Positions 3,271 through 58,701 of a DNA stretch of 64,000 bases are shown here, piece after piece. This DNA comes from Russula earlei (taxonomy: Eukaryota > Basidiomycota > Agaricomycetes > Russulales > Russulaceae). The notes beneath the pieces are model-generated. The model searched no databases, was not told the origin of the DNA, and saw only the letters and a program-made list of their open reading frames with translations. Positions within the stretch are counted from its first letter, which is position 1. Every line of letters begins with the position of its first letter. The DNA lies in NCBI GenBank assembly GCA_025769875.1, contig JAGFNK010000142.1:1-64000 (forward strand), in the 5' to 3' direction. Position numbers and translations under genes: made by a program.

Positions 3271-3280
3271 CACTGTGCTA

Positions 3281-4280: not shown

Positions 4281-5359
4281 CTTCGCATGTCAGACTCAGG
4301 AGATGCAGGGCAAGTGTGGGGGTTCGGTGTGAAACTCGCAGATGAGATTATGATCAGAGGGCCCTTGGTGGAGGACACAGAGCTGAAGGCACTGTAGAGA
4401 GAGCGATGACCATGGGCAACATGAAAATGAGACAGCGGTAGGGTACTTATCTGTAAGAGTCGGTCAAGAATGGGACATGTCTGGGACGGGTTGGTCATAT
4501 AAGTGTACTTACTACTCAGGGGTCAGGGCTCAGGGGGTTTGAGAGGGGGGCTGACCTCAACTCGCACTGCGAGTGTCATTCCCTCCTCCAACCACCATGT
4601 CTCATCCCCCCACATCTCCTCAAAGAATGTCAGTCTGCTGCACGTCAAACTGAGCGTGCCAGTCGTTCCTCAGTCAGTCTTGAACGGCGTAGGACACCTG
4701 CTGGGCATCCTGTTCATTTTGAAGGACGAGTCTATTGTCACTTACCAGACCATTTGGCTGCACAATTGGCTGCCCTGCAACCAATGCCTCCTCAACAGCA
4801 TCGAGGTCGGACTCCTGTGAATTCTCCCCTTGCCCCTCCTTCTGTAAGTGACATCCATCAGAAATGGACAATGGTATTAAATACAAGACACAGATTATCA
4901 CAAGGTCAAATTTGGTTGCCTCGGGCACTGCCAATGGCCCTGGCCCTAGCTCTGCCTCAAGCTCTGCTGCTGCTTCTGCTTCTGCTTCTGCTCATGCAAC
5001 TGGCTCTGGCACTGTTGTTGCTCCTGATCTTACTACTAACCCTCCTCTCCCCCTTTCACATCCTAATGGGCAGTATCATCATTTGCCAGCTGACTTGGCT
5101 GCTCAGCTTGCTGCCATTCCCCCTCCTCCACAAAAGAGAGGACTTCCTGTCCCTGCTTCTGTATGTTTTTATTGTCCAAAATATTTTTTTGGTGCATGAT
5201 TATTAACTTTCCCTACCACAGAGTCATTCAATGACTCCAACACTTTCTAGCTTTTCTTCAATGTCACATTTTCCAGTGAATCAACATTCTAATCCTGTTC
5301 CTGCTCGCAATTTCCCTCCTCTTGCTGTCCCTTCTGGCCATTCTTTTATTAATTTTGCT

Positions 5360-5361
5360 CT

Positions 5362-5424
<63 letters not shown>

Positions 5425-5442
5425 CCCTGCCCCTGCCCCTGT
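5360..5442 (+). repeat. GCTCCT hexanucleotide microsatellite within Helitron exon
   Basis: About 13 tandem copies of GCTCCT/GCCCCT encode an Ala-Pro run in the second of the recognised short exons of the Helitron gene. A related imperfect (TCTGCT)n run lies in the preceding exon at about 4950-5010. Confidence 0.85.
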
Positions 5443-7828: not shown

Positions 7829-8789
7829 TGTCAAGACTCACTGTTGAACTATCCAGTTCAAGAGCGAGGGATAAGCTCGAAGACGAGTCGATAGACGTCC
7901 AAGACCGCGTGGGCAAGGAGTAGAACCCAGAGGAGCAACAAATACCAGAGAGGTATTGTTACTGTGAGAGTAGAACAATCACGCAGGGAAGAGGCCAGGA
8001 TAGTCACAAGGGGATGGTCCTTAAAGGAGTATCCCAGGAATGGAGAGTGCCGTAAACAAATGGACAGTCTGAGGACTGTCCGCTACTTTATTGAGCGCTT
8101 ATATACTACAAGAGAACTGCTAAATAAGGAACAAGTCATAACCTTGTTATCAAGCACCATAGAGTGATGAGTAAGAAGTCGGAGGACGCTTACTGAGCAT
8201 GCTCAGTCATGCTCAGTAAGCTGCTGAGTAAGAAGCTTCTCTTGATGAGTAAGAGCTTCCATTGTCCACGTGTTCACTGCTTTAGTGCACGTGCAAACAC
8301 CTGATTCATTTCCTGTTAGTTAGTTTAGGGCCGGTCATTTGAGGACTTGTAGTTTGGTTAGGGAATAGTGTTATCTTATAAGGCCCTTATATAGTTCTAT
8401 TAGGGTCCTTAGAGTCGACCCTAATACTTCTATTAAGGTCCTTAGTGTTGCCTTATAGTTCGTTCTATAGTTATTAGAGTTGGTCTAATAACACGTTGTA
8501 GGGCCTTTGATACTAGGTTAGTACCTATTGTAGAGTTCCTAGGGTCATTCCAAAGGGTCCTTAGAAAGGCCCTAATGCTGTCTTTTGTTGCTAGAAGGGT
8601 TGCCTTTAAGTGGGGCTTGCTGTATGTCGATTGTGCCGAGAATCGCTCGCGCAACAATGCGTGCGCGATATTGTGGACACCTCTACTCACCCCTTTTGCT
8701 CGTGTGAACAGGGTGACACCATAGAGGCTGGGTTTCCTCCTATAAGGAAGGGTCCTTCAAGGGCCCTCTCTGGAGAATGGTTCATGACA
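7829..8789 (-). mobile_element. Solo LTR, family LTR1, copy A (in Helitron)
   Basis: This is a 961-bp retrotransposon LTR without internal region. On the minus strand it runs TGTCATGAACC to GAGTCTTGACA, with 5-bp inverted ends TGTCA/TGACA. It is flanked by the 5-bp duplication GAGAA (7824-7828 and 8790-8794). Its reverse complement shows a TATA-like 'actatataa' and an 'aataaa' signal, as expected for U3 and R. Two more copies of the same length are at 34,120-35,082 and 43,613-44,573. ORFs inside it are incidental. Confidence 0.95.
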
Positions 8790-10757
8790 GAGAAGGGCTT
8801 TGCTATTGGGAGGATGTTTCATGCTCACCCTACTTCTGGAGAGCGCTTCTACCTGCGCCTCCTTCTCACCTCTGTCAAGGGTGCTACCTCCTTTGAACAC
8901 CTTTGCTCATTTGAAGGCACTCTCTATCCCTCTTTCAGAGAGGCTTGCATTGCAAGAGGTCTTCTAGAAGATGATCAAGAGTGGCAGCAATGCTTGGAGG
9001 AAGCCAGTCACATGTGCACAGGTGCTCAGCTGCGCCACCTCTTTGTCACCATCCTCAAGGACTGCATTCCTTCTCAGCCTAGGGCACTTTGGGACAGATT
9101 CTGGCCCTCCATCTGTGATGACCTTCAGCACAAGCTCCAGCAGCATCTCAATATCCTACAGCCAACTGATGAACAGATCAAGGACTATGGCCTCTATCTC
9201 ATTGACCTCCTCCTCTCCCACTCTGCCAAGAGACTTCAGGATTGGCCAACCATGCCTCAGTTTGTTGAGAACTGGGGGGCCATTGCAGGGAATCCCCTCA
9301 TTCAGGAGCAGCTCCAGTATGACCTAGAGGAACAGGCTCTTCTTGCAGCTGAGTCTACTCCCAAGCTTAATGATCACCAGAAGGCTGCTTTTGTAGAGAT
9401 CATCTCTGCTGTCATCAACAAGACAGGGCAGATATTTTTCCTTCATGGCCCTGGGGGTACTGGCAAGACTTATCTCTACAACACCCTCTGCTACCATCTG
9501 CGCTCTCAACACAAGATTGTGCTCTGTGTTGCTTCCTCTGGCATTGCTGCACTCCTTCTCAAGGGAGGGCGCACTGCACACTCCTGTTTCAAGATCCCCA
9601 TTCCCTCCCATGAGTCCACTGTCTGCAACATCCCCAAAAACTCACATTTAGCAGACCTAATTCGCATTACTGACTTGGTCATTTGGGATGAGGCTCCCAT
9701 GCAGCACAGGCATGTGATGGAGACAGTGGACAGGTCATTCAAGGACATCTGTGGCTCTGACAAGCCCTTTGGTGGTCTTACCTTTGTCTTTGGTGGTGAC
9801 TTTCAGCAGATCCTTCCTGTCATTGTGCAAGGATCAAGGCCTCAGATAGTAGGTGCCTGCCTACAGCGCTCCCCCCTCTGGAGATCCATCAAAGTGCTTC
9901 ATCTCCACCAAAATATGCGCCTCAACACTGGCATTCAAGCTGAGGCCAACTTTGCACAGTGGCAGCTGGAGGTTGGCCAAGGCAAGCACACTGATCCCAA
10001 CTCTGTCATCCATCTTCCCCCCTACATGAAGTGCAGAGAGAACACAGTCTCCTCTCTGATTGACAGCATCTACCCTGGCCTTCACACTGGCAATCCTTCT
10101 TCTCAGTACTTTGCAGAGCGTGCCATCCTCTCTAGCCTTAACACTGATGTGGACAGCATCAACAAGGAGGTGCTTAGGAGGTTCCCAGGAAGGGCACAGC
10201 TCTTTCACAGTGCAGACAGCATCCCCCCTTCTGAGCAGAGTGGTGATGCAGATGTGATGCTGAACTATCCAGTGGAGTACCTGAACTCCATCAACTGCTC
10301 TGGACTGCCTCTTGCCAAGCTGGAGCTCAAGGTGGGCTGTCCTGTGGTGGTGCTGAGGAACTTGGATCCAACACATGGTGTCTGCAATGGCAGCAGGGGT
10401 ATCTTAAGGAGGTATACCAACAGGGTGCTAGATGTTGAACTGATCACAGGGGAGCATGTGGGAAAGAAGGTCTTCATCCCCAGGATCTCATGCCAGCCAA
10501 CAGAGGATCAAGTTGCCTTCAAGTTCACAAGGAGGCAATTCCCTGTGAGGGTATGCTTTGCCATGACCATCAACAAGTCCCAAGGGCAGACACTGAAGCA
10601 TGTTGGGCTGGACTTGAGAAGGCCTGTGTTCACACATGGGCAATTCTATGTGGGGGTGTCAAGGGTAACTTCTCTTTCCAACATCAAGGTGATTTGGGAG
10701 GATGAGAAGGAGGAGGCCTTTAGCAAAAATATTGTATATAATGAGGTGTTGATATAA

Positions 10758-22394: not shown

Positions 22395-22640
22395 ATATAC
22401 GAAACGGTTTCGAGCCGAGCCGGAGACGTTCCTGAGCCGAGGTAAGCCGTTCAACGGCTCGCGGCTCGAAACCGCTCAAAACAGTGCGAGCCGTTTCGAG
22501 CCATTTTGAAGTGCCCAATTTGGAGTTCTGGTTCTGAAGTGCCAGATTTGGATATGGTTGCTCAATTTGGAGAGTTGTCTGCCACTCTGCCTATTCCTGC
22601 AATCTACCTTGCTCCTTGGCTCCTGAGCCAACATTGCCAT
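22395..22640 (+). repeat. hAT left-end relic, related to the 49,550 element
   Basis: The phrases 'tttcgagccgagccgg', 'gagccgaggtaagcc', 'ggctcgcggctcgaaa' and 'gagccgtttcgagcc', then 'gaagtgccagatttgg' and 'atatggttgctc', match the first 200-400 bp of the large element at 49,550-58,057 in the same orientation. The terminal TAGTGCTGTC itself is not present here, so this is a truncated or diverged end. Confidence 0.65.
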
Positions 22641-22725
22641 CCTCAACAACAGCATTCACAACGGGCAGGAAGGGATAAGTCAACTGTGCTTATAGTCAAC
22701 TCAGTGGACAATAAAAGTAAAATAT

Positions 22726-22978
22726 TTCAAGTGCTGAGTAGGCTCTGTTGCGGCCACAAATTATATTACATAAGTAATGACTTTAGTTGAGCACGAAGAA
22801 TGTGACAAAAAAGGTTAAATAAGGACAGTCTACTCATTCCAGGCTAGGGTGAATGTTGTGCCGGAATGAGTAGACTGTCCTAATTTAATTTTTTTTGTCA
22901 CATTTTTCATGCTCAACTAAAGTCATTACTTATGTAATATAATTTGTGGCCACAACAGAGCCTACTCAGCACTTGAAA
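22726..22978. mobile_element. Palindromic MITE (foldback) with TA duplication
   Basis: This 253-bp, nearly perfect inverted repeat has arms of about 117 bp (22,726-22,842 and 22,865-22,978) around a 22-nt loop. The outer ends are TTTCAAGTGCTG and its complement. A TA lies on both sides (22,724-22,725 and 22,979-22,980), as expected for a Tc1/mariner-type non-autonomous element. It has no coding capacity. A transcript would fold into a long hairpin. Confidence 0.9.
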
Positions 22979-22980
22979 TA

Positions 22981-23440
22981 CTGTATGCCACTGGGAACTC
23001 AGCAGTTCACTACCATCTCGGCGATTTCATTTTTCCCTGTATCTGCTCAAACAACTCTATTCAAAACTTTGTAATTATACTATTGAGTACCATTAATGTC
23101 ATTCTAGCAAAGAAAAATTGCAGTCCATTGAGTGGTTCTCGAGTAATGTTTTGGCCTGGGGGTCACGCCTGTATCACACCTGCATCACACCACTGTCATG
23201 GCAGAGGGGGGAGTTTGATTCCAGCTGGGTGATCACATTACCGACAGTACGCTGACCTGGAGGCCTCCAAGGATCTGGGTACTCTCTCAATGTCATGTTA
23301 CAGGTGGTCCAGTTGGCCAGCACAAGACCATACATATGAGCAGTGGCTACAGGCTGCATTGAGTGACTACTGCAATGGGATCTATTGATCATTTACTTGC
23401 ACAGCACTGGCCCATGATGTCAGTGCATTCCATACATGGC
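22981..23440. other. Unassigned; one tRNA-like B-box phrase
   Basis: No gene is supported. Near 23,213 the phrase 'agtttgattccagctggg' resembles a pol III B box (GGTTCGANTCC), but no convincing A box or cloverleaf accompanies it. I regard it as a possible SINE remnant only. Confidence 0.25.
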
Positions 23441-24759
23441 CAATAAGTCAAAATCTTATGCTTTCCAAGGTTTCACGCCAGATGCTACAAGATAGAGCTT
23501 CTGGGAAACATAAGTCATGTCAGGAAGCTCACCAGGATGGCCAGTGTCTCAAGCCAGCCCAGGAAAAGGCATTGCTAGATTGGTGTGACTGTCAAGACAT
23601 GTACTGCTGATCCGTATGGACTCAGGAGCAGGTGGGCAAGGGTCGGAACAGATGGTACATGGCATTGAACAGGAGGACAAGCCAAATGTACCAGATGGGG
23701 ACTGGTACATGTAACTGGAGGCAGAGGCGAAGACTGGAGGCCAGTGCAGCGAGAAGGCTTTAGACAAGGCAGTTGTCGAAAAGTACCTTGGAGGCAAGGG
23801 GAGTCTTTAAACTGAGCGGTCGCAGGGGAGTACCCAGGAAGATGAGAGTATCACAAATGGACAGTCTGACAACTGCCATACTTCATTGGGGCTTATATAC
23901 AGTGTACAGGTTCAATTACAAAGAACTGGGACTATTCTAGACCCCTTGGTACCATCCAATAGGACTACAGAGGCATAAACTTGCTTGTGTCAAGTTTCAG
24001 GCTTACTAAGCACATTACTGATCATTGTGGAGTGATGACATCATTATGATGTCACTGTGGAGCACTTAGTGAGCCTATGAGGTCACTGTGGAGTCGCTCA
24101 GTCAGCCATGATGTCATTGGAGCCTTGATGATGTCAGATGAGTTATGCAACAGTTTCTAAGAGTTTGTGCTGCTGTTTCAGGTTCTTGGTGGCTGGGTGA
24201 CCATGTGGCTGCCACATGATGATTACCTGATTAGGAAATGGGTGCCTGGTGGTGTTATAGTGCCTTTTCCATAGCGATATCTTGCACCACAGGAAGGGTA
24301 GCCCAAGAAATGGAAGGGAGTTGGTAATGCAAAGTGAGAGAGGTCTCACTTGAGTGAAATAGGACAATATACAGCCAGGACCTGGCCTTGGTTCATAACA
24401 GTGACCAGCTGTCTGCAGAGGTGATGCCTTTGGATCAAAAGGCACTGCGGGCTCATGCTCTGGACCTATCTAGCCATTACCCTGGAATAAACTGGCATTA
24501 TCAGTTCATTAAACGCAACTCCAGTCTGACTTTCTCAAAAGCAAGTGGGTTGGATCCAAAGTGCACAAAAAACTTTAATAGGACAGTAGTCCATGACTAC
24601 TTTGCAAAAATACAGGAACTGGTGGACACTAATGATGGGATACCACCGGAACATCAATTGAATATGGACGAGAAGGGAATCCAGATGGGAGGTGGCCATA
24701 AAAATAATGGAAAAAAGTATCTATTCATGAAAGACCGGAAGCAGCGATATCGCATCAAG
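23440..24759 (+). pseudogene. Second pogo/Tigger-like transposase, N-terminal part, split by a solo LTR
   Basis: It belongs to the same family as the gene at 213-2678: the CENP-B type HTH and first catalytic region match, with DPKCTKNFN, IPPEHQLNMDEKGIQMGGG and the first catalytic aspartate at about 24,665-24,670. The frame upstream of the solo LTR (to 23,589, ending LLDWCD) continues after it at 24,406 (QLSAEV) once the LTR and one GTGAC copy are removed. The 3' two thirds, with the second and third catalytic aspartates, are missing because the gypsy element begins at 24,760. The exact start upstream of about 23,470 is unclear. Confidence 0.8.
23590..24400 (-). mobile_element. Solo LTR, family LTR2, copy A
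   Basis: This LTR is 811 bp, reading TGTTATGAACCAAGG to ATGTCTTGACA on the minus strand, with 5-bp duplication GTGAC at 23,585-23,589 and 24,401-24,405. A TATA-like 'gtatataagcc' is visible on the minus strand. A second copy is split across 49,357-49,549 and 58,066-58,701. Its ends resemble LTR1 (…TCTTGACA), so the two families are related. Confidence 0.95.
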
Positions 24760-33573: not shown

Positions 33574-35805
33574 ATGATGCAGACCCACTCATCAATAAGT
33601 CCAGATTCCATTGAAGGGAGTCTAATCTCAGAAAGTAACAAGGCTATATGGACAACTGAAGAGGAAGCTGCATTTCTACTGTTCCTCGTTGAGTGGAACC
33701 AAGAAGGAAACATGACCTCCAACGCCATGTTCAAGGACCATACCTTCAACCAAGCAGCCAATTCTATTAAGCCCATGCATGAGAAGGGTCCTATCAAGAC
33801 TGGACCTATGTGCAAATCAAAATGGCAAACAGTATGATTTTTTTTTTTGCTTTGCCATATCATGCAGCTAACATTGTCCACTACTAGATGAAGAAAAAGC
33901 AATTGGTAATCATTGCTCTCAGGAATGAGTCTGGGTTCAGGCACCTATGGACTGATGAGAATGGAATTGTTGTTCCACCTGAAATGGAATCAGTGTGGAG
34001 TGATCTAGTCAAGGTGCGTACATTACATCTAATTTGTCAATGCCATCTGATCATTATTAAAAACATCAAGAATACAACAAGTACAGGGATAAAGGCTGGC
34101 TGCATCACATCATCATGAATGTCATGAACCATTCTCTGGAGAGGGCCCTTGAATGACCCTTCCTTATGAGAGGAAACCCAGTCCCTATGGTGTCACCCTA
34201 TTCACACAGACAAAAGGGGTGAGTAGAGGTGTCCACAATATCGTACGTGCATTGTCGCACGAGCGATTCTTGGCACAATCGACATACAGCAAGCCCCACT
34301 TAATGGCAACCCTTTTAGCAATAAAGGACAGTATTATAGCCTCCTTAAGGACCCTTTAGGACGACTCTAAGTGCCCTAAAATAGGCACTAACACAATACT
34401 AAGGACCCTACAACGTGTTATTAGACTAACTCTAATAACTATAGAACGAACTATAGAGCAATACTAAGGACCTTAATAGAAGTATTAGGGTCGACTCTAA
34501 GGACCTAATAGAACTATATAAAGGGCCTTATAGACAACTCAATTCCTGGAACCAAACTACAAGTCCCCAAATGACCAGCCCTAAACTAACTAACAGCAAA
34601 TGAATCAGGTGCTTTGCACGTGTACTAAAGCGGTGAACATGTGGACAATAGGGGCTCTTACTCATCATCAGAAGCCCTCTTACTCAGCAGCTTACTGAGC
34701 ATGACTGAGCATGCTCAGTAAGCATACTCCGACTTCTTACTCATCCATCTATTGTGCTTGATAACAAGGTTATGACTTGTTCCCTATTTAGCAGTTCTCT
34801 TGTAGTATATAAGTGCTCAATAAAGTAACAGACAGTCTTCAGACTGTCCATTTGTTTACAGCACTCTCCAACCCTGGGATACTCCTTTAAGGACCGTCCC
34901 CTTGTGACCATTCTGGCTACTTCCCTGCATACCTGCTTGACTCTACCAGTAACTGTACCCCTCTGGTACTTGATACTGCTTTGGACTCTGCTCCTTGCCC
35001 ACACCGTCCTAGACATCTATCAACTTGTCTTCGAACTGACCCCTTGCTCTTGAACTGGATAGTTCAACAGTGAGTCTTGACAATGAAATCTCTGATGCCA
35101 TCAAGTGCAAAAGGCCAACATTCATATGGGGGCATGCAGTTGACAGCCCATTTTACTCCCCCTCAGTCACCTGCATCACTGTCCCCCAATCCCAATTTGT
35201 TTGAACATCAAAGTGGGGACTCCTTGTCATCCCTGGCACCAGATCGCTCTTCCTCCTCATCCAGTGTCCTTCATTTCAAACACAAAGTATCTCAGGTCAA
35301 GGATGTTGCCTCCAAAACATCTTCCTCATTGATCAAAAAACTCAAGTCTGATTCCATGGCAGTTGCTGTCCATGGCATGCAGTCAACCATGGAGAGGTTT
35401 GCCGATAACTTCAACACAACCATGCATGCATTCATTGCTTTGTCCCCACCCCCATTGTCGCTGGCACTCCCCCCACTCCCAATGCCGCTGGCACTCCCCT
35501 CAAACCCAGCCCTGGCCCCACCTCTGGCCATGCATATGCCACCTCCAAATGACATCATAACTATCTTGGCACTTCCCGAGATCACCCATCGGTCACTGGC
35601 AATTCAACATCTTACCAAGGATATTGAACTGAATGGTGAATGGCTCTCCATGGATGATGTTGTCCCTGTGATCAATGTCTTGGGATCTTGTGACATCATG
35701 CATGTAGACAGTTATATTGTGCTTATGACTAATGGGTCAGTGTTGTCACGCAAGATTGCATGCAACTACATCAAGGATCTATTGGAGAATGCCAGGATGT
35801 CCTGA
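33574..35805 (+). pseudogene. Harbinger Myb/SANT-like DNA-binding protein, split by a solo LTR
   Basis: It is the accessory DNA-binding protein of PIF/Harbinger elements, which works with the transposase on element ends. ATG 33,574 opens a Myb/SANT-like (trihelix) domain with WTTEEEAAFLLFLVE, FKDHTFNQAA and GPMCKSKW. Introns are 33,832-33,887 and one ending at 34,070 (donor near 34,014-34,018). The solo LTR at 34,120-35,082 interrupts the next exon; removing it with one ATGAA copy rejoins the frame (…HHIIMKSLMPSS). The rest (35,083-35,805) is Ser/Pro-rich, then a C-terminal section with ALPEITHRSLAIQHL, and ends at TGA 35,803. Except for the LTR it has few defects. Confidence 0.85.
34120..35082 (+). 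mobile_element. Solo LTR, family LTR1, copy B
   Basis: It is 963 bp, TGTCATGAACC to GAGTCTTGACA, with 5-bp duplication ATGAA at 34,115-34,119 and 35,083-35,087. It contains 'aactatataaaggg' and 'caataaagta' like copies A and C. It lies inside a coding exon of the Harbinger SANT protein. Confidence 0.95.
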
Positions 35806-42311: not shown

Positions 42312-45300
42312 ACCAAATGCTCAGTCACTTTGGGCATTCTTTCATTGAGGCGAGAAGCAAAATGGAACCCATTATCACATGTACTGCAAGGGTTGTGTTG
42401 CTCAACATGAAGTGATTGGTGATGAAGGACTGGATGACGCTTCAGAATTTATTTCACAGAAGTTGAGATTCGAAACTGGTGAGTAACAATCGCCAACATG
42501 ACATGTCATGTTCACCCTCAATCTCCATATTAACACATACTTCAAAGCTTGCCAAGCAGCGGGCAGTACTCGAGGCTCAAAACTAGCCTTCATTGCACAT
42601 ATAATTGGGGGACAAGGCATTCAACCATGCCTATATGCATCAGATGCAGCAAAAGAAGAAGCAATCACCCAATGAGCCTTGGGAAAGACATCAGCTAAGG
42701 GTAACGTGACATCTGAGCCAACTGTCAACAACAGCAGCAGGAAACACTCCCAACCAAGCTCCACCATTGAACCAAGCTCCCATCCATGCCAGAAGTTGAA
42801 ACAAGCCATGCTGAAGACCTACCGAGGAGTGGACATGCCATTCAGTCAAGAAGAGATGGTTGCTGTCCAGGCCCAAGTCCTTCGAGCTGTTGTTTTGGCA
42901 AACCTTTTGTTCTGAGCAATGGGAAACCCAGAGATGTTGAAGCTCTTTGGGATGCTACAAATGGCTGCACCTGGAATCATACCATCTAGGAAAATAATTG
43001 GTGGTCGGTTGCTAGATGAAGCATCAGGATAGTTGACTCAACGCTTGAAAGAATCCTAACCGGAAAGAACCTTGGTTTATTGTAAGATTGTAACGACACT
43101 AGATCAATATGCAGTGCTGATTTTGGAAGTGTAGGACTGATGGATGGAAATCTCTCATGAAAGATGCTGTGAACGGCATTTGTGCAAATGTGGATTTCAA
43201 GGTATGTGCCATTGTGCCTGTTGTCTGTGATGTATCTCCCACACCATCTAGTCATATACGCTAGAGTTGATTCATTCAAATGCAAATGACAAGGATGGAC
43301 CTGCACAATGTTGGCAATTTGAAGAGATTATTGATCAGATAGAGAAAAAGTATGGTTGCACAGTTATCTACTTCACAACAGATGCAGATGGTGGTAGCAA
43401 CAAGGGTCAGAAATTACTGATAAAGAGTTGGCCGTACTTGATTGGGCCATCATGTTGGGCTCACCAGGTGTGTGCAGCAACATTTCATCATGCCATGTCA
43501 TAAATACTAATGGTTCAATTCACAAAGTTTCAATTGATTCTTGTCAACTACTTTAAGGTCTGCATTTACGTGGTAGAGATTGGAGCATCTGCAACAGCAC
43601 TGATAGGCTGGCTGTCATGAACCATTCCCCGGAGAGGGCCCTTGAAGGACCCTTCCTTATATGAGGAAACCCAGCCTCTATGATGCCACCCTGTTCACAC
43701 GAGCAAAAGGGGTGAGTAGAGGTGTCCACAATATCGCGCGCGCATTGTTGCGCGAGCGATTCTCGGCACAATCGACATACAGCAAGCCCCACTTAAAGGC
43801 AACCCTTCTAGCAACTAAGGACAGTATTAGAGCCTTCCTAAGGACCCTTTGGAACGACCCTAGGAACTCTACAATAGGTACTAACCTAGTATCAAAGGCC
43901 CAACAACGCGTTATTAGACCGACTCTAATAACTATAGAACGAACTATAAGGCAACACTAAGGACCTTAATAGAAGTATTAGGGTCGACTCTAAGGACCCT
44001 AATAGAACTATATAAGGGCCTTATAAGATAACACTATTCCATAACCAAACTACAAGTCCTCAAACAACCGGCCCTAAACTAACTAACAGGAAATGAATCA
44101 GGTGCTTGCACGTGTACTAAAGCAGTGAACACGTGGACAATGGAAGCTCTTACTCATCAAGAGAAGCTTCTTACTCAGCAGCTTACTGAGCATGACTGAG
44201 CATGCTCAGTAAGCGTCCTCCGACTTCTTACTCATCACTCTATTGTGCTTGATAACAAGGTTATGACTTGTTCCCTATTTAGCAGCTCTCTTGTAGTATA
44301 TAAGCGCTCAATAAAGTAGCGGACAGTCCTCAGACTGTCCATTTGTTTACGGCACTCTCCATTCCTGGGATACTCCTTTAAGGACCATCCCCTTGTGACT
44401 ATCCTGGCCTCTTCCCTGCGTGATTGTTCTACTCTCACAGTAACAATACCTCTCTGGTATTTGTTGCTCCTCTGGGTTCTACTCCTTGCCCACACGGTCT
44501 TGGACGTCTATCGACTCGTCTTCGAGCTTATCCCTCGCTCTTGAACTGGATAGTTCAACAGTGAGTCTTGACACTGGCTGAACAACCATGGGAAGGTCCA
44601 TACCATATTTAACGAGGCACAGGCAGATATCAGCAAGGACCATAATAATGGACGTCCTATCATTCTCACATATCTCATGGCCAATCTCACACGATGGATG
44701 ACACATTACATTGCCTTTGTTCGCTTATACACTGTCAAGGAACCACTTCAGCTTGCCGTAATGCTGCATCGAGTAGCTATTATTGCTGCACAAATTGGGG
44801 CAGCCAAGTCAATGGAGAAAGAATGGCTGACCAAAGATGCTGTACAGTTCTGTGACTTAATTAAAATCCACGCGTTCTGGACTGGGCTAGAGACCGTTAT
44901 AGGTGACATTGAGCCCATCTGCTATAGAACAAACATCAATCAGAGCAGCTCTACTTGGGCTGATCAAGTCCTACTTACCTTGGTGGGAATGTTCTTACAT
45001 TTCAAGGGTCATCCTGAGCCCCACGTTGCAACTGCGATGGTCAAACAACTTGAAAAGAGATGGAAGTCTTGTGACCAACCACTTTTCATCCTGGCCTTGA
45101 TTCTTAATCCATACGAGGGTCTATCCTGTTTTGAATCCACTGCAAATCTTAATTACTTCAAGTGAAATAACCTCCTCATTTCAGTATGTCATTTATGTCC
45201 ACTATCTCAAACTATACAGCAATTGATGGGTGTAGATGTATCATTGCATGAAAGCCTGGCCCTCAAACAGTGATATGCCACAGGAGTGTGCTACAAAGGA

Positions 45301-49356: not shown

Positions 49357-49560
49357 TGTTATGAACCAAGGCCAGATTCTGGCTGTATAGTGTCCTATTT
49401 CACTCAAAGAGAAACCTCTCTCACTTTGCATTGTCAACACACTTCTGTTTCTTGGGCTACTCCTCCTGTGGTGCAAGATATTGCTATTGCAAAGGCACTA
49501 TGACACAATCAGACATCCATTTCCTAATCAGGTAATCATCGCATGGCAGTAGTGCTGTCG

Positions 49561-49595
49561 CCGGCTCGGCTCGAAACCGTTTCGAGCCGAGCCGG
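49561..49595. repeat. Perfect subterminal palindrome of the Pack-hAT
   Basis: Two 17-bp arms (49,561-49,577 and 49,579-49,595) are exact complements around one C. It begins 11 bp inside the left end. A partial version ('cgaaacggtttcg') is in the relic at about 22,401. It is probably part of the transposase binding region. Confidence 0.9.
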
Positions 49596-49974
49596 AGCCG
49601 TATCTGAGCCGAGGTAAGCCATTCAATGGCTCGCGGCTCGAAACAGCGCGAGCCGTTTCGAGCCGTTTCGAGCCGTTTGAAGTGCCAGATTTGGGTATGG
49701 TTGCTCGATTTGGAGAGTTGTCAGCCACTCTTGACTCTGCGTCTGGAATCTACCTCGTCCCTTTCTGCTATCCTCAGTAGGATCCAGTTACCGTTGTGGT
49801 CCTGTACCTCATATTTTTATCTCTATATCCATCTTGACCCAAGGGTCACTCATAAACAATTGCACTGGTTCCTCAGAAACAGCTCAAGCCGTTTCGAGCC
49901 ACTTTGAAGTGCCAGATTTGGATATGGTTGCTCAATTTGGAGTCGTCTGGAATCTACTGGCAGCAATCCCCCCA

Positions 49975-51412
49975 CGCCTTGCTCACCCTCCCCATATCTG
50001 CGTAAATCATCTCTTCCTACTGGAGCTCCCAAAGCCGCCGCTACCCAGCGTACCTCAAAGACTCATCAAAGACTTGTCGAGCTCCTGTCCGACCCCCAGA
50101 CCCGCCCCCTCCCCGCAGAACCGCAGAACAAGGCGAAGATGACGAGATCCATCGCTACGAGACAGACGCAGGCGTGCGCATGCGCGAGCATAGGAGCACC
50201 ACGGAACGCATGACCAAGGCAGAGCGCCGCCGAGCTGGGTGCCGCCGCATCACCGCTTACTGGCTCGCGGATGGCTTTCGCATGAACCTGCTTGCCAACT
50301 TTCTCAAGCGCGAGCACAATGTTGTCCCTCGTTCGTTTGATGAGGCTCTCTATGTCGTACGTTCCTCGTCGACCCCTTGTCCTTCAACTTTTCCCCCTTG
50401 CCCCCGTCCCTTGCACAGTACACGTGGGGCTGGCCACCTCTCCCAAATGTATCACCTCCCGTTGCTTCCTGGTTGCGGCCCCGCGGCTACAGTGCGCTCC
50501 TCGGTTCCCACTCCGTCGCACAGGTCTCAGGCTGAAGAAGACGGCTACCCGGGCTCATACTTCTTCCCGGGACGCGCACCCGAGGATGGATTCGTATCGC
50601 ATGATGGCTATATCGCGCGGAGCTTGACGAGCGAGCCACCCATCGAACGGCCCATGCACGAGCCCGAGGAAAGCGAGGTCGACGGCGAGTCGCGTGAACG
50701 TGGCCAGCGCGTGGACACCCCTTTGCTCGCGTCCCATAGCCCCAGCCCAGCTCCTCCTTTTGTGCCAGTGGGCGAGCCCAGAACACCGGTGGCGACGTGG
50801 CCGAGATCGTGTTCTTTAAGTATGGAGTCGCTGTCTTCTTTGGATTCCACGAGATGCAGGAGCGCAATATCCTCGAGGACGTCCATGGTGCAGGCACACT
50901 CAAAGGTGCACGTGTCGAGAGCGAATGGAAAGTTGAGGAATGTCATTTTGCATTAAGTAATTCTGCCCCCCCCTTTCTTGGTTCAGCACTATACCTCGTC
51001 GTAGTATGATTCAACGATTGGCTATCCGCGCATTTACAACGATTTTTTCAGTGAGTTTAGCTCATCTCCTTTCCGTGGGAGAAAAAGCATTCACACTGTC
51101 TTTGGTAGCATTCAAATCCCCGTCGCACCTTCTCACGCTCTCACTCTCGCATGCGCTTGCACGTCGACACTCCTCGCACACTACGAATCGCAAGCACATA
51201 CCATCCTCCAACATCCGCGCACGCAAGCCTTGCCACGCACGCGCGCACTAGCACTCTCGCGACGCGACGCGATGCCGCTCACTGGGAAACTCTTCACGTT
51301 GCGCCGCGACTTCGTGCTCGTGCGCAACGTTCTCGACGTGCCGAGTACCTTCTGGGAAGAGGCGAGCATGGGCTGGACACCGTTGGGCATAGAATGCCTG
51401 CGAGCACGAGTA
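49975..51412 (+). pseudogene. Captured fragment of an RMD1/Sif2-like (DUF155) gene
   Basis: RMD1-type proteins are conserved fungal proteins (DUF155) linked to meiotic division and to mitochondrial or Sad1-interacting functions. Here, upstream coding (SSLPTGAPKAAATQRTSK) leads to GEDDEIHRYETDAGVRMREH, then RITAYWLADGFRMNLLANFL and KREHNVVPRSFDEALYV (to 50,358). An intron probably runs from 50,359 (GTACGT) to about 50,420 or later, then YHLPLLPGCGPAATVRSS. The next block, AEIVFFKYGVAVFFGFHEMQERNILEDV (about 50,797-50,885), is the DUF155 core, and after introns near 50,955 and 51,052-51,110 come SHLLTLSLSHALAQST-like and TGKLFTLRRDFVLVRNVLDVPSTFWEE (51,275-51,360). The C-terminal helices are missing or diverged. 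Frame changes near 50,790 and 51,160 indicate decay. CpG content is high. Confidence 0.8.
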
Positions 51413-51915
51413 AGGCGCGCTAAGTTATGCAGTGGTTCCGCTTGAGCAGCAGGGGCCATGGTCTCGACGACGACGGAGAAACATCCGTTCCATCTGTACG
51501 CGATGCGTTCGTCGTCAGCGCGAACGATTTCATGTGACTGATTTGAACTCTTTGGCACTAGGATTGTGACAGATCTGAATCCACAATTCTGCCTCCAAAG
51601 AAGCCGACTATGGAGCTGCAGGAGCTGGAGATGTTGAACCGCATCCGGATGACCAATCTGCTTTAACATCGACAAGTCAACTGCTACACAGTTTGGCAAG
51701 CCGTCGACGTTGAAAGAAGACTTGTGCCTTTTTTCTTCTTGTCGACTTTCTCCCTCCTTGGCTTGCTAATGATTGGTATCTAACATCGTGTGTAAATCTG
51801 TCGAATGGTACAAGTCCTTTCCGAACAACCACCCTGTGCATTGCGTTATCCGCTCGTCCCCATCCTCCCCTCCGCTAGCATTTGTAAACTTGGCTGACTT
51901 GTCTGCGCTTATCAG
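51413..51915. other. Junction segment between captured fragments
   Basis: No convincing gene. A short stretch near 51,620-51,660 reads EMLNRIRMTNLL on the plus strand, loosely like the helix that follows FWEE in RMD1 proteins, so decayed RMD1 sequence may continue this far. Confidence 0.35.
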
Positions 51916-52860
51916 AATGACGTGCACATAATCGCTTACATGTTGCTATTCCGGATTGCTAACAAATTCCACCAAGAAGTTATCTCAGATCCCACCATAC
52001 CCAATAGCTTGAATCGCTCAATTGACTTCCGGGCAGTGACGCTGGAGTATGATTGGCTATTGACCGACTGTCGTCAGGAGTGGGCAGAGCGCTTCGAACA
52101 GGATTCGGACCACTCCGGTACATGGCACCCGTCGTTTTGGCTATCTTGGACTCGTCTGATGTTGCCCCCGATCTTCTTACATTACAGATGCCGCCTGTGA
52201 GTTCCACATCAAGCTTCTTCTATTGTATGTCTCCGGCATTTGTTTTGCCAGATTCGCTGGCTCACCTGTGTTTCTTTCGCATTACAGCTACACCAATTAC
52301 GCGAGGCTCGTCATGTTCTCTTTCAAGTTCCAAAATGCGTTCCAACGGGGCCTTGAAGCCGATGATGAGGTCTTCTTCACAAGGGTGAGAGATTTCACGT
52401 TATCGTGTATTGTTGGCATGACACCGGTATTCTTCAAGAGCCTGGAGAGCGCCAAGACTGTCGTCACGGTTCTCGTCGATTCCTTGGTCCCGACAGGTTA
52501 CATACATTTTGCACCAGATGGTGCATGAAACTCTGGGCCACTTTGCTCTGCGCAAGACTAACATTATTTTGTATTTGCCACGTTTGCCTCGGCGTTCGTG
52601 CTCAAGGTGCGCTGTCCCGCTTTCTATCGCCCCATGGTCTTGGTCGGAATTTTTGACTTGCATCTACTATAGCTTCTACGCCCAGAATGCTCAAGGTTTA
52701 TCACCCCGGGGCTTGAAACAGAGCTCTGCCAAGTGATCGAACGCCTCATTGCCATGATCGGGTCTCCCCAAAGTGCAATTGATGAGCGCCACACACCAAA
52801 GTTGTACTCGCGCTTCCTGGCAAGCTTACTGGCGAAACATAAACATGATGGCACGGCCCA
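51916..52860 (+). pseudogene. Captured C-terminal fragment of a Zn2Cys6-type transcription factor
   Basis: The segments WLLTDCRQEWAERF (about 52,052), SHYSYTNYARLVMFSFKFQNAFQRG (about 52,279-52,353), DDEVFFTR, SAKTVVTVLVDSLVPTGYIHFAPDG (about 52,447-52,523), FVFATFASAFVLK (about 52,568-52,606) and IGSPQSAIDERHTPKLYSRFLASLLAKH (about 52,758-52,843) appear in the order seen at the C-terminus of basidiomycete fungal-specific transcription factors. Introns are suggested at about 52,384-52,437 (GTGAGA to AAG) and 52,524-52,560. The zinc cluster and the start of the fungal_trans domain are absent, so this is a 3' fragment. It shares strand with the RMD1 piece. Gln/Asn/His-rich sequence follows to about 53,000. 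Confidence 0.75.
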
Positions 52861-53373
52861 AGGACATATGCCTCAACAGGGATCACCACCACAGCAGATG
52901 CAGACCGGTTCGAATACGCCAAGGTCCAACAACCACCACAACCACCACAGCAACAGCAACAATGATGGCAGCAACCAGCCCTCCCGCTGCAGAACACAAC
53001 CTCGTCGTTACTATCCTTTACTGTTGTGGTTGTTTCCTTGTCTCTGCATTGGCTTTCGGTGTTGTAATCGTCATTTATTGCTTTTTGAATGTATACAAGG
53101 TATCGTCAATGACTCAAATCCACATTTATAGATTTCTCTAAACGGGTTGTGTTATCTGGCTCAGCAATCGCCGTCTTATAGATATCAGAGGAGTTCCTGT
53201 CCTCGCAATTACCGAACCCACTCCTGCTACTATAACATCCCATGCCGACCTCTAAATGGATCCCTGGAGTAGTGCTGCATTTGCATTTGCAGTTGAGGCA
53301 GGGCGCGTGCTTGCCCTCGGTTTGAAGCTAACGTTCATTGGCGACAAATATGTTGTCGATGTCGTGTTCGGGG
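52861..53373. other. Unassigned segment in the Pack-hAT
   Basis: A CAA/CAC-rich stretch lies at 52,926-52,975, and a plus-strand frame with a hydrophobic segment (about 53,010-53,095) reads LLWLFPCLCIGF. No family recognised. Confidence 0.35.
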
Positions 53374-53871
53374 TCATTGGTATTCCCGGTTTCCACAGGG
53401 TTGCGACTTGTGTGCAGATTGTGAGTTCGTAGATGGTGTCGACTGAGGGGTCGCAGACACGGCGGGCGTCGGTTGCGGCTTTGTATTGGAATTCGGTGCG
53501 GAGTCATGAGGCCGCGATGATCCCTGAGCCTGCCCCGACGCCGGAAATTTATTCGCCTGCATCACTTTCATCACGAACTCACGACCCTTTTTGTACACGG
53601 CCATCTACTGAGCGAGCGTGGTGTTGTACTGTTTCGCCTCCTCGGTATGCCCGGCTTGTGCAGCCCCCATTTGCCTGTTACGCATCTCGGTGATGCGTAT
53701 CTCCACTTGCTTGAGTTTAGCCTGCAAATCTGCAACATCGGCATTTGCCATTTGCCCTAGATTGAGGGGTAGCGACGGAGATTGAGATGGGGGTTGAGGT
53801 TGAGGTTGTATTGGCGGTTGTACTTGGGCTGTGATGTAGTCAGTGGTTGACTTTGGGTGCCCGAGAACCAT
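53374..53871 (-). pseudogene. Unidentified Gln/Pro-rich coding fragment
   Basis: Two minus-strand frames abut at 53,604/53,605 in the same phase, separated by a stop. They read a Pro/Gln-rich start, an amphipathic helix (ADLQAKLKQVEIRITEM) and KKGREFVMKVMQANK, then low-complexity Ser/Thr/Gln sequence. It looks like part of a nuclear regulatory protein, but I do not recognise it. It follows the Nup188 piece on the same strand and is in a different frame. Confidence 0.4.
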
Positions 53872-56212
53872 GCTAGTTCCAGCAGCGCCAGAAGGATCGC
53901 TAAGCGAACACCATGAGCAGTGAGAATGATTTCCCCAGAGCGCTTCTCTTTCGCGATTGAAGCAGATATCGATGACGCAAGCGACATTACGACAGGACGA
54001 AATTTGATATCACCTTGTAAGAAAGGTGCAACTTCGACTAGAAATACTTGCCACGATTGACCAAGTTGGGTTGATGCATACGCTAGGGAGAGGTTGAGGT
54101 TGATGGAGAAGAGGGTATGAATAAGTTCGTCGGCACGGGCTACAGTTGTGTCCAAAGAATCAATGTTGGAAAGCTCATTCGCAACTGAAGAGGCTCGCTT
54201 GTGAAGGCAAAGTCATCCCCCAGCTCGTGCTCTCCGACCAGCTCCCTTGATTCATAGTGTTCAAGAACCAAGTCCGGAAAGTGTCCTTCGGCTTTCTCTG
54301 CAAAATCTGCATAAAGAGTCGTAAGCATTGAAGATCGCTTCGTGGAGTTCATTCGAAAACTGCTCCTCGGATTTGAGAATGCTTTCGCTAGCCTGGTAGC
54401 TTTGGGGCTTTGCTCGATGTTCCCTGGCTGACGGGGCCGGGTCCAAACCGATATCGAGTGCGATGATCCGTATTGCAAAAGCTTTGGATAGCACCCGACA
54501 CGAATGAGATGAGATGCTCTCGTGGTATGCAGCACGCGGATATCCGGCCATCTCAACCAGCTCCTTGCTCTTGTACTCCGGCGCTGGGGATATTTCTTCC
54601 TTGGCAAGTGCGGCGAGCTGACTCCAGAACTCCGAATTCTTCCTGATATTGGTTAATGTCGACTGATGATCCCACCCGCGTTGCCATACAACTGTCAGGA
54701 AACCCAAAACAGCCGAAAGCAGCTGTGGATTTGTCTCCCAGTACTTGTTCCAGTTCGCAAGCATCTCCCTAGCAGCATCGAGTGCGCTCACACGTTTACT
54801 TTTCCCTTTATCCTTAGTGGATTCCTCTTTGGGAGCCTGAAAATGGCCCACGATGAAAGGGTGACCAAGGGCAGGCTCTGCTTCAACGGCGAGCGCCATA
54901 AAACGCCATACACCTAAGCCACACGTCCAAGTTGTGGTATGGATGTCGAGCCACACCCACCAGTGCCACGACTGTTGCTTCTAGATTGGATAATTGACCA
55001 ACCATGGACGGGCCGGAAAACTTCCAAGTCGACAATGATGAGCATAGTGCGTATAATAAACGGATGGATTCCTAGTGGAACCGTGGAATCGGTAGAGGAT
55101 TCTTCGACAAACCCTGCGAGGACATCGAGAGGGTCCGACTTGTGTCGTCCTCCGTCGAACGACCAACACAAGGCATACTCCAGCAAGCAAGGCCCCTCCT
55201 CTACACAAATGCGCTGCTTGAAAATCAGGGAGAGACGCAAAGCACGGAGGTGGGATCAGAGAACAAGGTGTAGGCCAAGAAGATCGCTAAGGCGACGGGA
55301 TGCACGAATCCGGCGTGAGACAACAGCGAAGCTGGTGAACATGGAGATCAGAGGCTCAACAGTGGAAGTCGTTGCCTTGGACACTACGGCCCGACTAACT
55401 ATTGACAAGGGACCCTCCCTATCCGGCGGTACTTGATCGAGGACATCGGCATACAAGCCTGACACGAGCTTCCCGAGCTCGAAACGCGTCCCCAGCTGCG
55501 CGTATTTCCACCCTATGTGCTCAACGCACACTTCGACGTGAACGAAACGCAGCGCATGAAGGAGTGCCTCCTTGATCTCAATCAAGCGAGCTTTTCCATC
55601 GTGTGGTGCAAGTAAAGTACCGGATGCTTCAGTGCCACAACGCATGAACGAGATGGAGCAGTGCCCGCGTGGTTGCATAGTTCCCACTGCACGCTCAGCG
55701 GCCATGGCGCCACGACTGCATGGAGAGTCGAATAATGCAGTCGATGCGCGCGCAAATAACCATATGTGCGGAGCATACTCTGGGAGTGAGAGCAGTCCTG
55801 CAAGTAGACCCATTGCCGACGTTATAAGGGCAGATTCTGGGGGTGTTCCGCTATGCTGCCGCACAGAGCGCATAAGTGCGTCCTCGAGGATGGGCATCAT
55901 CAGTTGCACCAGGCCCAGCGAGTCGCCATCAGTCGTGATCCCAACATAGTTGCTGTTTTGGAGCGAACTGAGAACCTGTGCTGCGAGGACTTGATTGTCT
56001 GATATGACGGCACAAAGCAAGTTGAGTGTGGCGGCCACAACCGAACCATCTCCATCAGGTTCAAGTTCAAGTCCAATATCTTCTAGGCAAAGAACTACGG
56101 GTGGTTGCGAGGCCATGCGATTGACAGGAGCACTTGCAACAGGGGCAGATAAACCTGGTATTAGGTGTTTGCGTCGGACATAGCCATATAGGACCTTGAC
56201 AGGAGTTTCCAT
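53872..56212 (-). pseudogene. Captured fragment of nucleoporin Nup188
   Basis: Nup188 is a large alpha-helical scaffold protein of the inner ring of the nuclear pore. On the minus strand the fragment shows VLCLEDIGLELEPDGDGSVVAATLNLLCAV (about 56,110-56,020), GLVQLMMPILEDALMRSVR (about 55,910-55,855), HIGWKYAQLGTRFELGKLVSGLYADVL (about 55,520-55,440), then after a gap DAAREMLANWNKYWETNPQLLSAVLGFL (about 54,783-54,700) and LSLAYASTQLGQSWQVFLVEVAPFL (about 54,090-54,020). This order and the last blocks match fungal Nup188 C-terminal halves. It is interrupted by frameshifts (near 55,660, 55,250, 54,960, 54,400 and 54,150) and possibly introns. The N-terminal half is absent. Assignment rests on remembered family features, not on a search. 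Confidence 0.65.
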
Positions 56213-56751
56213 CCAGAGTGCTCACACTGCCATACGATGATGAAATCCTCCCCATCCTGACTAAGGAGACGACCGGTCGACCGGGCAGGGAGAATGGAAT
56301 GGTTCTACCTGGGAGCTTTAATGGCCGCGAATTGGTGGAGGTAGGGCCCAACGCTTTGGAAGATAGCATATCGCTCGGGAACCTTCTCGTATAGCGCTTG
56401 TGACCCTGTGCACGCACTTGTGGGTAAAATTTGTGTGTACGTCGGCAGATTCTCGAAGAAATATGAAACTTCTTGAGCACATTGTGCCCGTGCCTCCATC
56501 AGCGGAGGCTGAGTAGGCTGTGGTGGTCATGCCAGATTAGGCAGTGAGGGCGCCTGCTGTGGCGGGTTTGGTTTAGAGGGAAGGGGACGATTCTGCACCA
56601 ATGCGGGCACAAGTTCTGGTGTGGGTTGAGTGAGATCAATGACATCTGATTCTGGTGGTTCGAGGGAAGGAGGTTTCGGTGGAGAGGCTTGAGGCGCCGG
56701 GGAGGCTAAGGCAGAGGATGGTGGAGCAGGGGCGGGGGCTGGAGGGACCAA
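56213..56751 (-). pseudogene. Unidentified Pro-rich coding fragment
   Basis: A minus-strand frame from 56,751 is Pro/Ala-rich with VIDLTQ, reaches TGA at 56,529-56,527, and continues in the same frame as PPQPTQPPLMEARAQCAQEVSYFFENLPTYTQIL to about 56,305. It looks like a disordered nuclear protein joined to a helical segment. It is probably another captured piece, upstream of the Nup188 fragment and in the same direction. Confidence 0.4.
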
Positions 56752-57929
56752 GGGACTAGATTGTGGGATTGTTTTTTTTTTCAGTGGCCAAGGCCGGGGA
56801 CGCGGTCTGTGAGGGAAGTTTTACAAATTTCGGGCCAGGTAAGCGTTGCTCAGCAGGAGTTTCTGCAGGATGCTTGGCGGGGATTGTAGGTGGGACTGCG
56901 GCTGAGATAGAACCATGAGTGGCCTTATGGAGTGGGAGCGATGGGTCAAGGCTGTATCTGTGGGTTTAGGTGACGACGTAAAGCCCGATAGTAGGACGGT
57001 GTGATGAGGGCGGGTAGGAAACCATGGTGGTAATCACGCATCTGAGATCTATTGGATGAGATGCTGTAAGTGAGGGGGAGGTGATGTGACGCTGACAAGG
57101 AGTGACGCAGAGTGGAAAACAGCTCCGAGAATTTGGGAGAGGGGTGGACAAGCAGCATTGAACAGTTGATGTCGTGCTGTCAAGGGATCATAAGTCCATA
57201 AAGTTCCGCACGGCGAGGGCAGTGCATTCACCTTCAGCTCAGCAGGAACCGTCGTCCATGTGAGGTTGTCAAGAGCGGGTGAGGAATTCCAATACAGGTG
57301 CTTGGCATCGTCCAGCCGTGAAGTGCCATAAGTAACAAGAAAACTTATCTTTAGGCTTGTCGCGAGACTCGTTCAGAGTTAGGGGATGTAGGGGCTTCTG
57401 ATTGACACCATTCTTGAGGTTGTCAAACATCTGGCAATACTAAGGACGCATGCATCGAGACAGACAGAAATCCAGATACATCTATTGCCGCAGCATAGCC
57501 CTCAAGTGCAGCCATCCCCAAGGACCCACCGGTGACAGTGCGACCTATTGTGAGTCTCGTCGGGTCTTCCTTCAGCTCATCAGGCATGCCCGAAGCGAAG
57601 AAATGATTGATGAAAGGCGGGGACCCATGGCGATCGGGGGACCCTTATGTGATGATTCTGAGGCGGAGTTGCTGAGAAGATGGAAGATTTAAGAGCGAAT
57701 TCGAAAGCTGGATAGGAAACAGAGCTATACATGTGGGGAGGAAGTACCTCCTGCAAGACGATGAAGGAGTTGAGGCAGGTAGACGTGAAGGACGTGGTGC
57801 CATTCCGATGCGAGGGTATTAGGTAAGGCGAGCAGAGCCAACGTCACCTACAAGAGCATTACAGTGGCAAGTGGCAACAAGAGTTCTTTGGTGTTCTAAA
57901 AATGGAAAGTAGATCCAAAAGTAGACATG
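56752..57929. other. Right interior of the Pack-hAT, no gene recognised
   Basis: Several short minus-strand frames (for example 57,231-57,049 with NALPSPCGTLWTYDPLTARHQLFNAACP) look coding-like and may be further captured pieces, but no family was recognised. A 9-T run is at about 56,771. CpG is frequent. Confidence 0.35.
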
Positions 57930-58057
57930 GCCCAAATGGGACGGCTCAAATCGGCTCAAGCCGCAAGCCATGGCTTGGCTCGGTCCGGCTCACCCAATCT
58001 GGCCAAGCCGTTGCTGAGCCGAACCGAGCCGAGCCGAGCCGAGCCGTGACAGCACTA
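57930..58057. repeat. Right subterminal repeats of the Pack-hAT
   Basis: Multiple copies of 'cggctca', 'gagccga' and four consecutive 'gagcc' units (58,026-58,046) precede the terminal 'gtgacagcacta'. They mirror the 'ggctcg' repeats of the left end. Confidence 0.85.
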
Positions 58058-58701
58058 CATGGCAGCCACATGGCCACTCAGCCACCAGGGACCTGAAACA
58101 GCGGCATGGACTCCTACAACTCATTGCATAACTCATATGATGTCATTTAGCTCCAATGACATCATGGCTGACTGAGCAACTCCACAATGACCTCATGGGC
58201 TCACTAAGCGCTCCACAGTGACATCATAAAGATGTCATCGCTCCACAATGATCAGCAATATGCTCAGTAAGCCTGAAACTTGACACAAGCAAGTTTATGC
58301 CCCTGTAGTCCTATTGGATGGTACCGAAGAGTCTAGAATAGTTCCAGTCCTTTGTAATCAACCCTGTACACAGTATATAAGCCCCAATGTAGCATGGCAG
58401 TTGTCAGACTGTCCATTTGTGATACTCTCATCTTCCTGGGTACTCCCCTGTGACCACTCAGTTTAAAGTCTTCCCTTGTCCTCAAGGTACACTTCAACGA
58501 CCACCTTGTCTAAAGCCCCCTTGCTGCACTGGCCTCCAACCTTCACCTCTGCCTCCAGCAACATCTACCAGTCCCCTTCTGGTACCTCCTTGTCATTTGG
58601 CTTGTCCTCTTGTTCAACGCTGTCTATGCCGCGTACCATCTGTTCCAACCCTTGCCCACCTGCTCCTGAGTCCTTAGTGATCAGCAGTACATGTCTTGAC
58701 A

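Follow-up and report, generated by a model that had tools for sequence, protein, structure and literature searches.

Gene capture by DNA transposons has so far been argued mainly from plant and animal cases. Pack-TYPE elements, defined as non-autonomous, are treated in a plant study that surveys hAT ends in rice and maize and names the Pack-hATs (PMC8903248). The animal Pack-TIRs, named for their terminal inverted repeats (TIRs), include the frog element Pack-hAT-N8_XT, and gap filling together with fork-stalling template switching is proposed for them (PMC8277862). From fungi there are hAT elements that transduplicate histone H3 in Pyrenophora tritici-repentis (PMC3538342) and Pseudocercospora fijiensis (PMC6710886), TET/JBP genes on DNA transposons including a rust hAT7, where the authors saw no signature sequence at the ends of the shared segments (PMC12730594), and Pleurotus ostreatus Helitrons with captured genes (PMC4289320). 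Here we describe an element in a 64,000-nucleotide stretch of Russula earlei DNA (contig JAGFNK010000142.1, positions 1–64,000, forward strand; hereafter the window). It occupies positions 49550–58057, is 8,508 bp long and complete, and is very probably a non-autonomous Pack-type hAT transposon, moved by the transposase of its relatives, whose interior was built stepwise by copying host fragments and whose cargo is decaying.

Plant hATs make 8-bp target-site duplications. The element in R. earlei is bounded by the following features (window coordinates):
49542..49549, no strand: left target-site duplication CATGGCAG, read from the sequence
49550..49559, plus strand: left TIR TAGTGCTGTC, read from the sequence and checked against shuffles
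49562..49675, plus strand: left subterminal zone with 10 CGGCTC sites on both strands together, by motif count; many genome matches
57942..58046, minus strand: right subterminal zone with 8 CGGCTC sites, by motif count; many genome matches
58048..58057, minus strand: right TIR, read from the sequence and checked against shuffles
58058..58065, no strand: right target-site duplication CATGGCAG, read from the sequence
24121..24352, minus strand: unfilled paralogous copy of the host repeat, with the counterpart of the insertion site at about 24209–24216

The TIRs are 10 bp long, perfect and inverted at both ends, and we take them to fit the end consensus of the hAT superfamily. TAGTGCTGTC occurs exactly twice in the window, at 49550–49559 (+) and 58048–58057 (−), and two copies were reached in 0 of 100 dinucleotide shuffles. 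The window total of 26 CGGCTC sites is unremarkable (shuffle mean 16.69; 26 reached in 5 of 100 shuffles); what stands out is their concentration near the ends, where 18 of the 26 lie (10 left, 8 right). When the flanks of the element are joined across a single duplication, the host repeat at 24121–24352 agrees with them at 188 of 228 aligned positions; it is an unfilled, paralogous copy of the insertion site in the same window, as distinct from an orthologous empty site of another strain. A six-frame Pfam scan of 49550–58057 on both strands found no transposase domain at E 0.01. Inverted hAT ends, an 8-bp duplication, subterminal CGGCTC repeats and a missing transposase had all been proposed in a preliminary description of this DNA, and all four hold.

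These results confirm a complete non-autonomous hAT element. Since host-gene fragments lie between intact TIRs and a duplication, without a transposase of its own, it is a Pack-TYPE element, more precisely a Pack-hAT. Chance ends in ordinary genomic DNA are ruled out by duplications at 12 loci, by the unfilled repeat copy and by the separate source loci (see below), and a Helitron identity is ruled out by the TIRs and duplications.

Contigs of the 66.6-Mb assembly, the one assembly covered by the genome searches, are given below as C-numbers, and element coordinates are window coordinates minus 49549. The genome searches scored the best 40 of 78 (left subterminal), 128 (right subterminal), 181 (cargo), 748 (C205 type) and 154 (C284 type) candidates, and copy numbers are therefore lower bounds. 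In the protein searches (transposase, Nup188 and MED25-like) the candidates with most shared words were scored. The interior is confirmed as a mosaic of four host-gene fragments, with RMD1 and a transcription factor on the plus strand and a MED25-like gene and Nup188 on the minus strand:
49969..51370, plus strand: RMD1/DUF155 fragment with its intron, both gene ends cut off; source C119
51376..51536, plus strand: family segment also present, in part or whole, in C284, C261 and C54, by alignment
51537..53256, plus strand: fragment of a Fungal_trans (PF04082) transcription-factor gene with a multicopy source; C480-type match
53257..53858, minus strand: MED25-like fragment, first part; source C35/C552
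53859..56502, minus strand: Nup188 fragment, set blunt inside the MED25-like fragment; source C123
56503..57817, minus strand: MED25-like fragment, second part; no interruption between the two parts in C35, C552 and C87

None of the source loci is on the contig of the window; they were found on C119, on C480 and others, on C35/C552 and on C123. Element 420–1821 corresponds to C119, whose frames cover positions 1–52 and 64–174 of the 174 of DUF155. On the plus strand of the window DUF155 appears as two exon-like pieces, of which one passes the Pfam cut-off and the other does not; the sole other Pfam listing in the scan of the element, DUF3439, was likewise below it. Element 1988–3466 and 3466–3707 correspond to C480-type loci; between the two, at window 53015, the element lacks about 760 bp that C480 has. 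C480 itself matches Fungal_trans (PF04082). Element 3708–4309 and 6954–8268 correspond to one contiguous stretch of both C35 and C552. Element 4310–6953 corresponds to C123, where two open frames of 562 and 1266 aa both match Nup188 profiles above the cut-off; the longer one has a 98% match to a Russula earlei protein, covering 95% of the query. On the window itself the Nup188 match is weak (PF21093, E 0.0039, below the cut-off) and absent from the six-frame listing. Pfam scans of the MED25-like gene were negative, and its name comes from the 19 protein matches of its spliced model (best Russula earlei, 81%), 8 of which carry PF11265 and 4 the label Mediator. Its intron borders are provisional, since the splice model worked with looser and not with strict sites.

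At ungapped sites the donors are 94.4% (C119, RMD1), 95.1% (C123, Nup188) and 93.5% (C35/C552, MED25-like) identical to the cargo, and the stretches read of these donors contain no TIR and no CGGCTCGG. The transcription-factor gene is multicopy, with more than 20 places at 83–89% to the cargo among the matches listed. The C480 locus is 95–97% like C81 and like a second C480 copy over more than 4 kb including the flanks, so that the gene seems to lie on a larger repeat, perhaps another gene-carrying element. The MED25-like loci of C35 and C552 are 99.3% identical over 4.3 kb and could be recent duplicates or two haplotypes in the assembly. Further short matches to the interior were seen on C32, C857, C1238, C234 and C707.

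The RMD1/DUF155 and Nup188 fragments had been assigned correctly, strands included, in the preliminary description, and the parental genes it expected have their source loci here (C119, C123 and C35/C552, with the transcription factor multicopy). Its Zn2Cys6-type factor is a transcription factor in kind, with no Zn2Cys6 domain on the window piece and with Fungal_trans PF04082 in the relative C480. Its "at least three" host genes were right as to multiple fragments on both strands; the count is four, the MED25-like piece having been missed.

The alignments to the donors run through the predicted introns, and their largest indels are 18 bp (RMD1), 21 bp (Nup188) and 9 bp (MED25-like). The RMD1 intron beside the DUF155 exon aligns with its donor with one 3-base gap and few changes. 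Introns are thus retained in three of the four pieces (RMD1, Nup188 and MED25-like), which are the three examined. Because predicted introns are retained and the donors keep their own copy, capture was by DNA-level copying, as had been proposed from the retained introns. The cargo could alternatively consist of retrocopies of transcripts, as for histone H3 in fungal hATs, a route published for Pseudocercospora fijiensis in a paper that states the same for Pyrenophora tritici-repentis (PMC6710886). Yet here the RMD1 intron is aligned, and the predicted introns of the MED25-like and Nup188 pieces lie inside continuous alignments with no gap above 21 bp. The spliced, retrocopied capture typical of the fungal histone H3 hATs is therefore not found in the window element; retained introns rule it out for three pieces, and as a source of the cargo it is extremely improbable.

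The separate source loci also bear on whether the element might be a macrotransposon, in which two hAT ends flank one ancestral host region that moved as a unit. In the Ac/Ds system hAT elements can use the ends of neighbouring copies, which would allow this. The pieces nevertheless match separate contigs, break inside genes and lie on both strands, while the donors are still in place; the MED25-like piece encloses the Nup188 piece, and composites without Nup188 are still present. A macrotransposon is therefore very unlikely. The preliminary description had named parental genes contiguous in this order in related genomes as the sign of ordinary genomic DNA; in the assembly searched here the source loci are on separate contigs, which does not refute the element.

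The nested Nup188 piece allows the order of captures to be read. Donor C35 reads GACTTTGGGT^CGGAGGCTGAG uninterrupted, and C552 likewise shows no break at these coordinates. The ^ marks the exact point at which the window element holds its 2,644-bp Nup188 piece, whose joins are blunt and leave no base duplicated or lost. C87 holds the MED25-like sequence contiguous across ^, with one change in the ten bases before it, adjoining the transcription-factor piece and without Nup188. C54 has the transcription-factor and MED25-like pieces in the order of the window and with the same join, again without Nup188; across ^ it has lost 29 bp and gained a single base. The join left by the roughly 760-bp deletion in the transcription-factor piece is common to the window element, C54 and C87, which makes the latter two kin of the composite in the window. 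As both lack Nup188, this gene came after the transcription-factor and MED25-like pieces, in keeping with the several capture events suggested earlier; exact loss of Nup188 from C87 is the less likely alternative. In C87 (94908–99456) the relative orientation of the MED25-like and transcription-factor pieces differs from that in the window, and they may have been reshuffled or independently joined.

How the Nup188 piece was joined is a choice within the explanation we favour. Instead of template switching, end joining could have put free genomic fragments (filler DNA) into breaks of the element, a course to which we give a little less than an even chance. Both Nup188 joins are blunt, without loss or duplication of the target, and the 29-bp deletion with one added base in C54 is consistent with an end-joined break at the same site. 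Against this, 67.6% of the Pack-TIRs in PMC8277862 are reported to have microhomology at one or more breakpoints, blunt joins can arise by other routes as well, and a single well-bounded event was read. Overlapping BLAST matches had suggested a 3-bp microhomology at the joins, which reading of the bases ruled out. Both mechanisms fit, and the blunt joins of this one event make us lean slightly towards end joining.

The ends of the element belong to a family. The pattern TAGTGCTGTCN{0,3}CGGCTCGG occurs at 60 places in the assembly and its reversed control at none. Fifteen end pairs were tried for a target-site duplication, and 12 of them, covering five cargo types, have an exact 8-bp one:
window CATGGCAG; C261 ACCTTAGT; C367 CCATGAGT; C18 GTACACTG
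C19 CATGGACG; C284 CAGGAGGG; C205 AACCCAGC; C587 ATTGATGG
C173 GCTGTCTT; C25 CCATGTGG; C586 GGGTTGTT; C1032 AAATGGAT

The copies were sorted by cargo:
type A: window, C788 and C366; partial in C861, C735, C389 and C223
type B, 89–90% like A: C261, C962, C367, C18 and C1304
type C: C284, C173, C587, C29, C25 and C586, among the matches listed
type D: C205 type, at least nine contigs
type E: C19, with transposase

The cargo of C788 and C366 is 99% identical to that of the window element. When the 1.5-kb left flank of the window element was compared with the left flanks of ten copies, nine had no similarity and C173 shared 193 bp at 84%; the left flank of C788 is dissimilar, and C366 has just 44 bp there. 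Dissimilar flanks together with the duplications show that the copies spread by transposition. No canonical right end was found in the loci read of C962 and C366. The left ends of C1003 and C462 have the same ten flanking bases, as with the near-identical C35/C552. Copies with the same ends and different cargo, which the preliminary description had suggested looking for, thus exist in five cargo types with duplications, and the ends and duplication, far from being confined to one copy, are common to many.

Host-gene pieces are present in all five members fetched in full (window, C261, C284, C205 and C19). C261 aligns with the window over the stretch of Nup188 and MED25-like sequence, and the type B members are contiguous across both Nup188 joins, which places the Nup188 capture before the A/B split. 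C284 carries a DUF155 piece and a HAMP piece, while C205 carries Pkinase (an MPS1-type MAP-kinase piece) and HATPase_c, without a hAT domain on either strand. The DUF155 piece of C284 has no DNA match to that of the window, so that two DUF155 genes seem to have entered the family; DUF155 matches are scattered over the genome at 30 places. Pieces of both C284 and C205 match the locus C75, which is probably the histidine-kinase donor. A 1.46-kb stretch of the C284-type cargo matches C405 (45958–47438) and C141 (95849–97331) at 88–89% and is perhaps a fragment of another gene.

A search for PF05699 gave at least 147 places in the genome (the best 150 of 260 candidates were scored), one of them inside C19. 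This member is 10,120 bp long and has the same ends as the window element and an exact 8-bp duplication. Its transposase model lies on the minus strand (element 6419–3263), with 16 short GT-AG introns and 784 open aa, and matches PF05699 at E 6.8e-16; residues 681–741 match Hermes at E 3.8e-7. The model has at least 54 protein matches, including fungal hAT proteins (best 40% identity, Pleurotus pulmonarius), and judging by the names 39 of these belong to mushroom-forming fungi and their class. Eight-bp duplications, short TIRs and this hAT transposase in a member with the same ends place the family in the hAT superfamily, and the transposase-bearing relative that the preliminary description had suggested looking for as an autonomous hAT is found in C19. 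Its cargo consists of an RMD1-like left piece, a histidine-kinase piece (HATPase_c) and 283 bp that also occur in the kinase part of C205. Although of the same family, C19 has a transposase of its own and in this feature is not a Pack-TYPE element. C205 and C19 are about 95% alike in both end regions and do not share the transposase region. Transposase-related stretches are also found in C1344 (97%) and C110 (99% over 774 bp), and C1366 shares the left 1.7 kb of C19 at 98.7%, with a PF05699 match in addition.

Between the window element and C788 there are 37 mismatches in 6,305 aligned bases. Set against a cargo divergence from the donors of 4.9–6.5% (ungapped), this means that type A spread long after the captures. 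Transitions at CpG exceed other C/G transitions (0.118 vs 0.024 in Nup188, 0.156 vs 0.025 in MED25-like and 0.059 vs 0.026 in RMD1), an excess of the kind expected if the DNA had been methylated. The Nup188 substitutions fall on codon positions 1/2/3 of the second donor frame as 37/25/41, second positions being hit a little less often, and 9 of 14 indels have lengths not divisible by three. Near-even substitutions and frame-breaking indels give no clear sign of a working Nup188 protein. The cargo of the window element is decayed. It might still be kept for a function, as a chimeric gene or as a source of small RNA acting on the parents, given that cargo lineages outlasted several transpositions and that types A and B are about 90% alike with several copies each. 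The stops, frameshifts and near-even codon-position substitutions in the Nup188 piece speak against this, and we consider it very unlikely.

We favour a Pack-type hAT that is mobilised by relatives and fills up stepwise. A C19-type transposase would most likely recognise the shared ends and move the window element by cut-and-paste, leaving 8-bp duplications. The interior would have been assembled stepwise from copied genomic fragments of unlinked host genes; these were most likely taken up when ectopic templates or filler DNA served to mend breaks inside the element or gaps left by excision. One of these steps is directly legible, the addition of the 2.64-kb Nup188 fragment to a MED25-like fragment that was already resident. 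Afterwards the composite would have gone on transposing while its cargo decayed.

Several points weigh against this reading. The shared ends, the duplications and the transposase gene are in evidence, and mobilisation in trans by a C19-type enzyme is a deduction; the exon borders of the C19 model are uncertain and its RNase-H-fold match is below the cut-off. C54 and C87 were placed by cargo joins and not by family ends. The blunt Nup188 joins fit end joining as well as template switching, and a divergence of about 5% could hide 1–3 bp of homology there. The segment 51376–51536 (about 160 bp) has no source locus among the matches, and the multicopy transcription-factor family fixes no single parent. 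Among the end pairs, C788 has 7 bp in common (CTACGTG), and the TIR may have absorbed the eighth; at C609 the place read lacks a canonical right end; and the guessed pair 97056/111123 on C110 was rejected as a single 14-kb element, as its flanks differ and have no common duplication.

Other repeats were noted in the window. A truncated relic of the left subterminal region of the same family, without a TIR, lies at 22400–22588, near an inverted repeat pair at 22718–22840 and 22863–22985 (123 bp, 93%). Three repeats at 7829–8790, 34120–35082 and 43612–44573 are 85–98% alike over up to 962 bp, occur in both orientations and are probably other transposons.

One genome thus holds donors, composites without the later capture, filled descendants, transposed copies and an open transposase model between the same ends. 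With donors, intermediates and descendants together, the order of capture is readable and the mechanism testable in one fungus. The case illustrates gene copying and shuffling in fungi, and it is a caution that gene copies annotated in such genomes may belong to the cargo of a transposon. More broadly, though only tentatively, this could be a fungal hAT family with routine pickup of host DNA, whose large members, among them the one with the transposase, are all multi-gene mosaics. Break repair would add, remove and reorder their fragments before they are spread, a gene shuffling in mushrooms like that of the plant Pack-MULEs.

The literature searched, which included few subscription papers, gave by title and abstract start no fungal hAT family with several intron-bearing host genes, and no papers on Russula earlei were found in it. 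Like plant Pack-hATs, the elements are TIR transposons that carry host-gene fragments without a transposase; the host here is a fungus, and the transposase-bearing relative C19 is also a carrier. With animal Pack-TIRs they share the duplication of genomic DNA by TIR transposons, both single-copy and multicopy, and differ in being multicopy composites of up to four genes, with composites free of the later capture in the same genome. The Pleurotus Helitrons likewise show gene-fragment capture by DNA transposons of mushrooms; they are rolling-circle elements, whereas TIRs and duplications here indicate cut-and-paste. Rust hAT7 is also a fungal DNA transposon with a captured gene, but there a recurrent enzyme gene and 7-bp duplications are described, in contrast to decayed pieces of unrelated host genes here. 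The preliminary description knew of no fungal hAT counterpart, and the locus is less unprecedented than that, since the histone H3 hATs are in print (PMC3538342, PMC6710886). They too are fungal hATs that carry and amplify a host gene, with 8-bp duplications stated for P. fijiensis. Those ascomycete elements hold one gene, with an intronless transcript in P. fijiensis, whereas here several intron-bearing genes were captured in a basidiomycete. Multi-gene, intron-retaining hAT capture is thereby extended to basidiomycetes, and a fungal hAT family of this kind whose transposase-bearing member is itself a carrier appears to be new.

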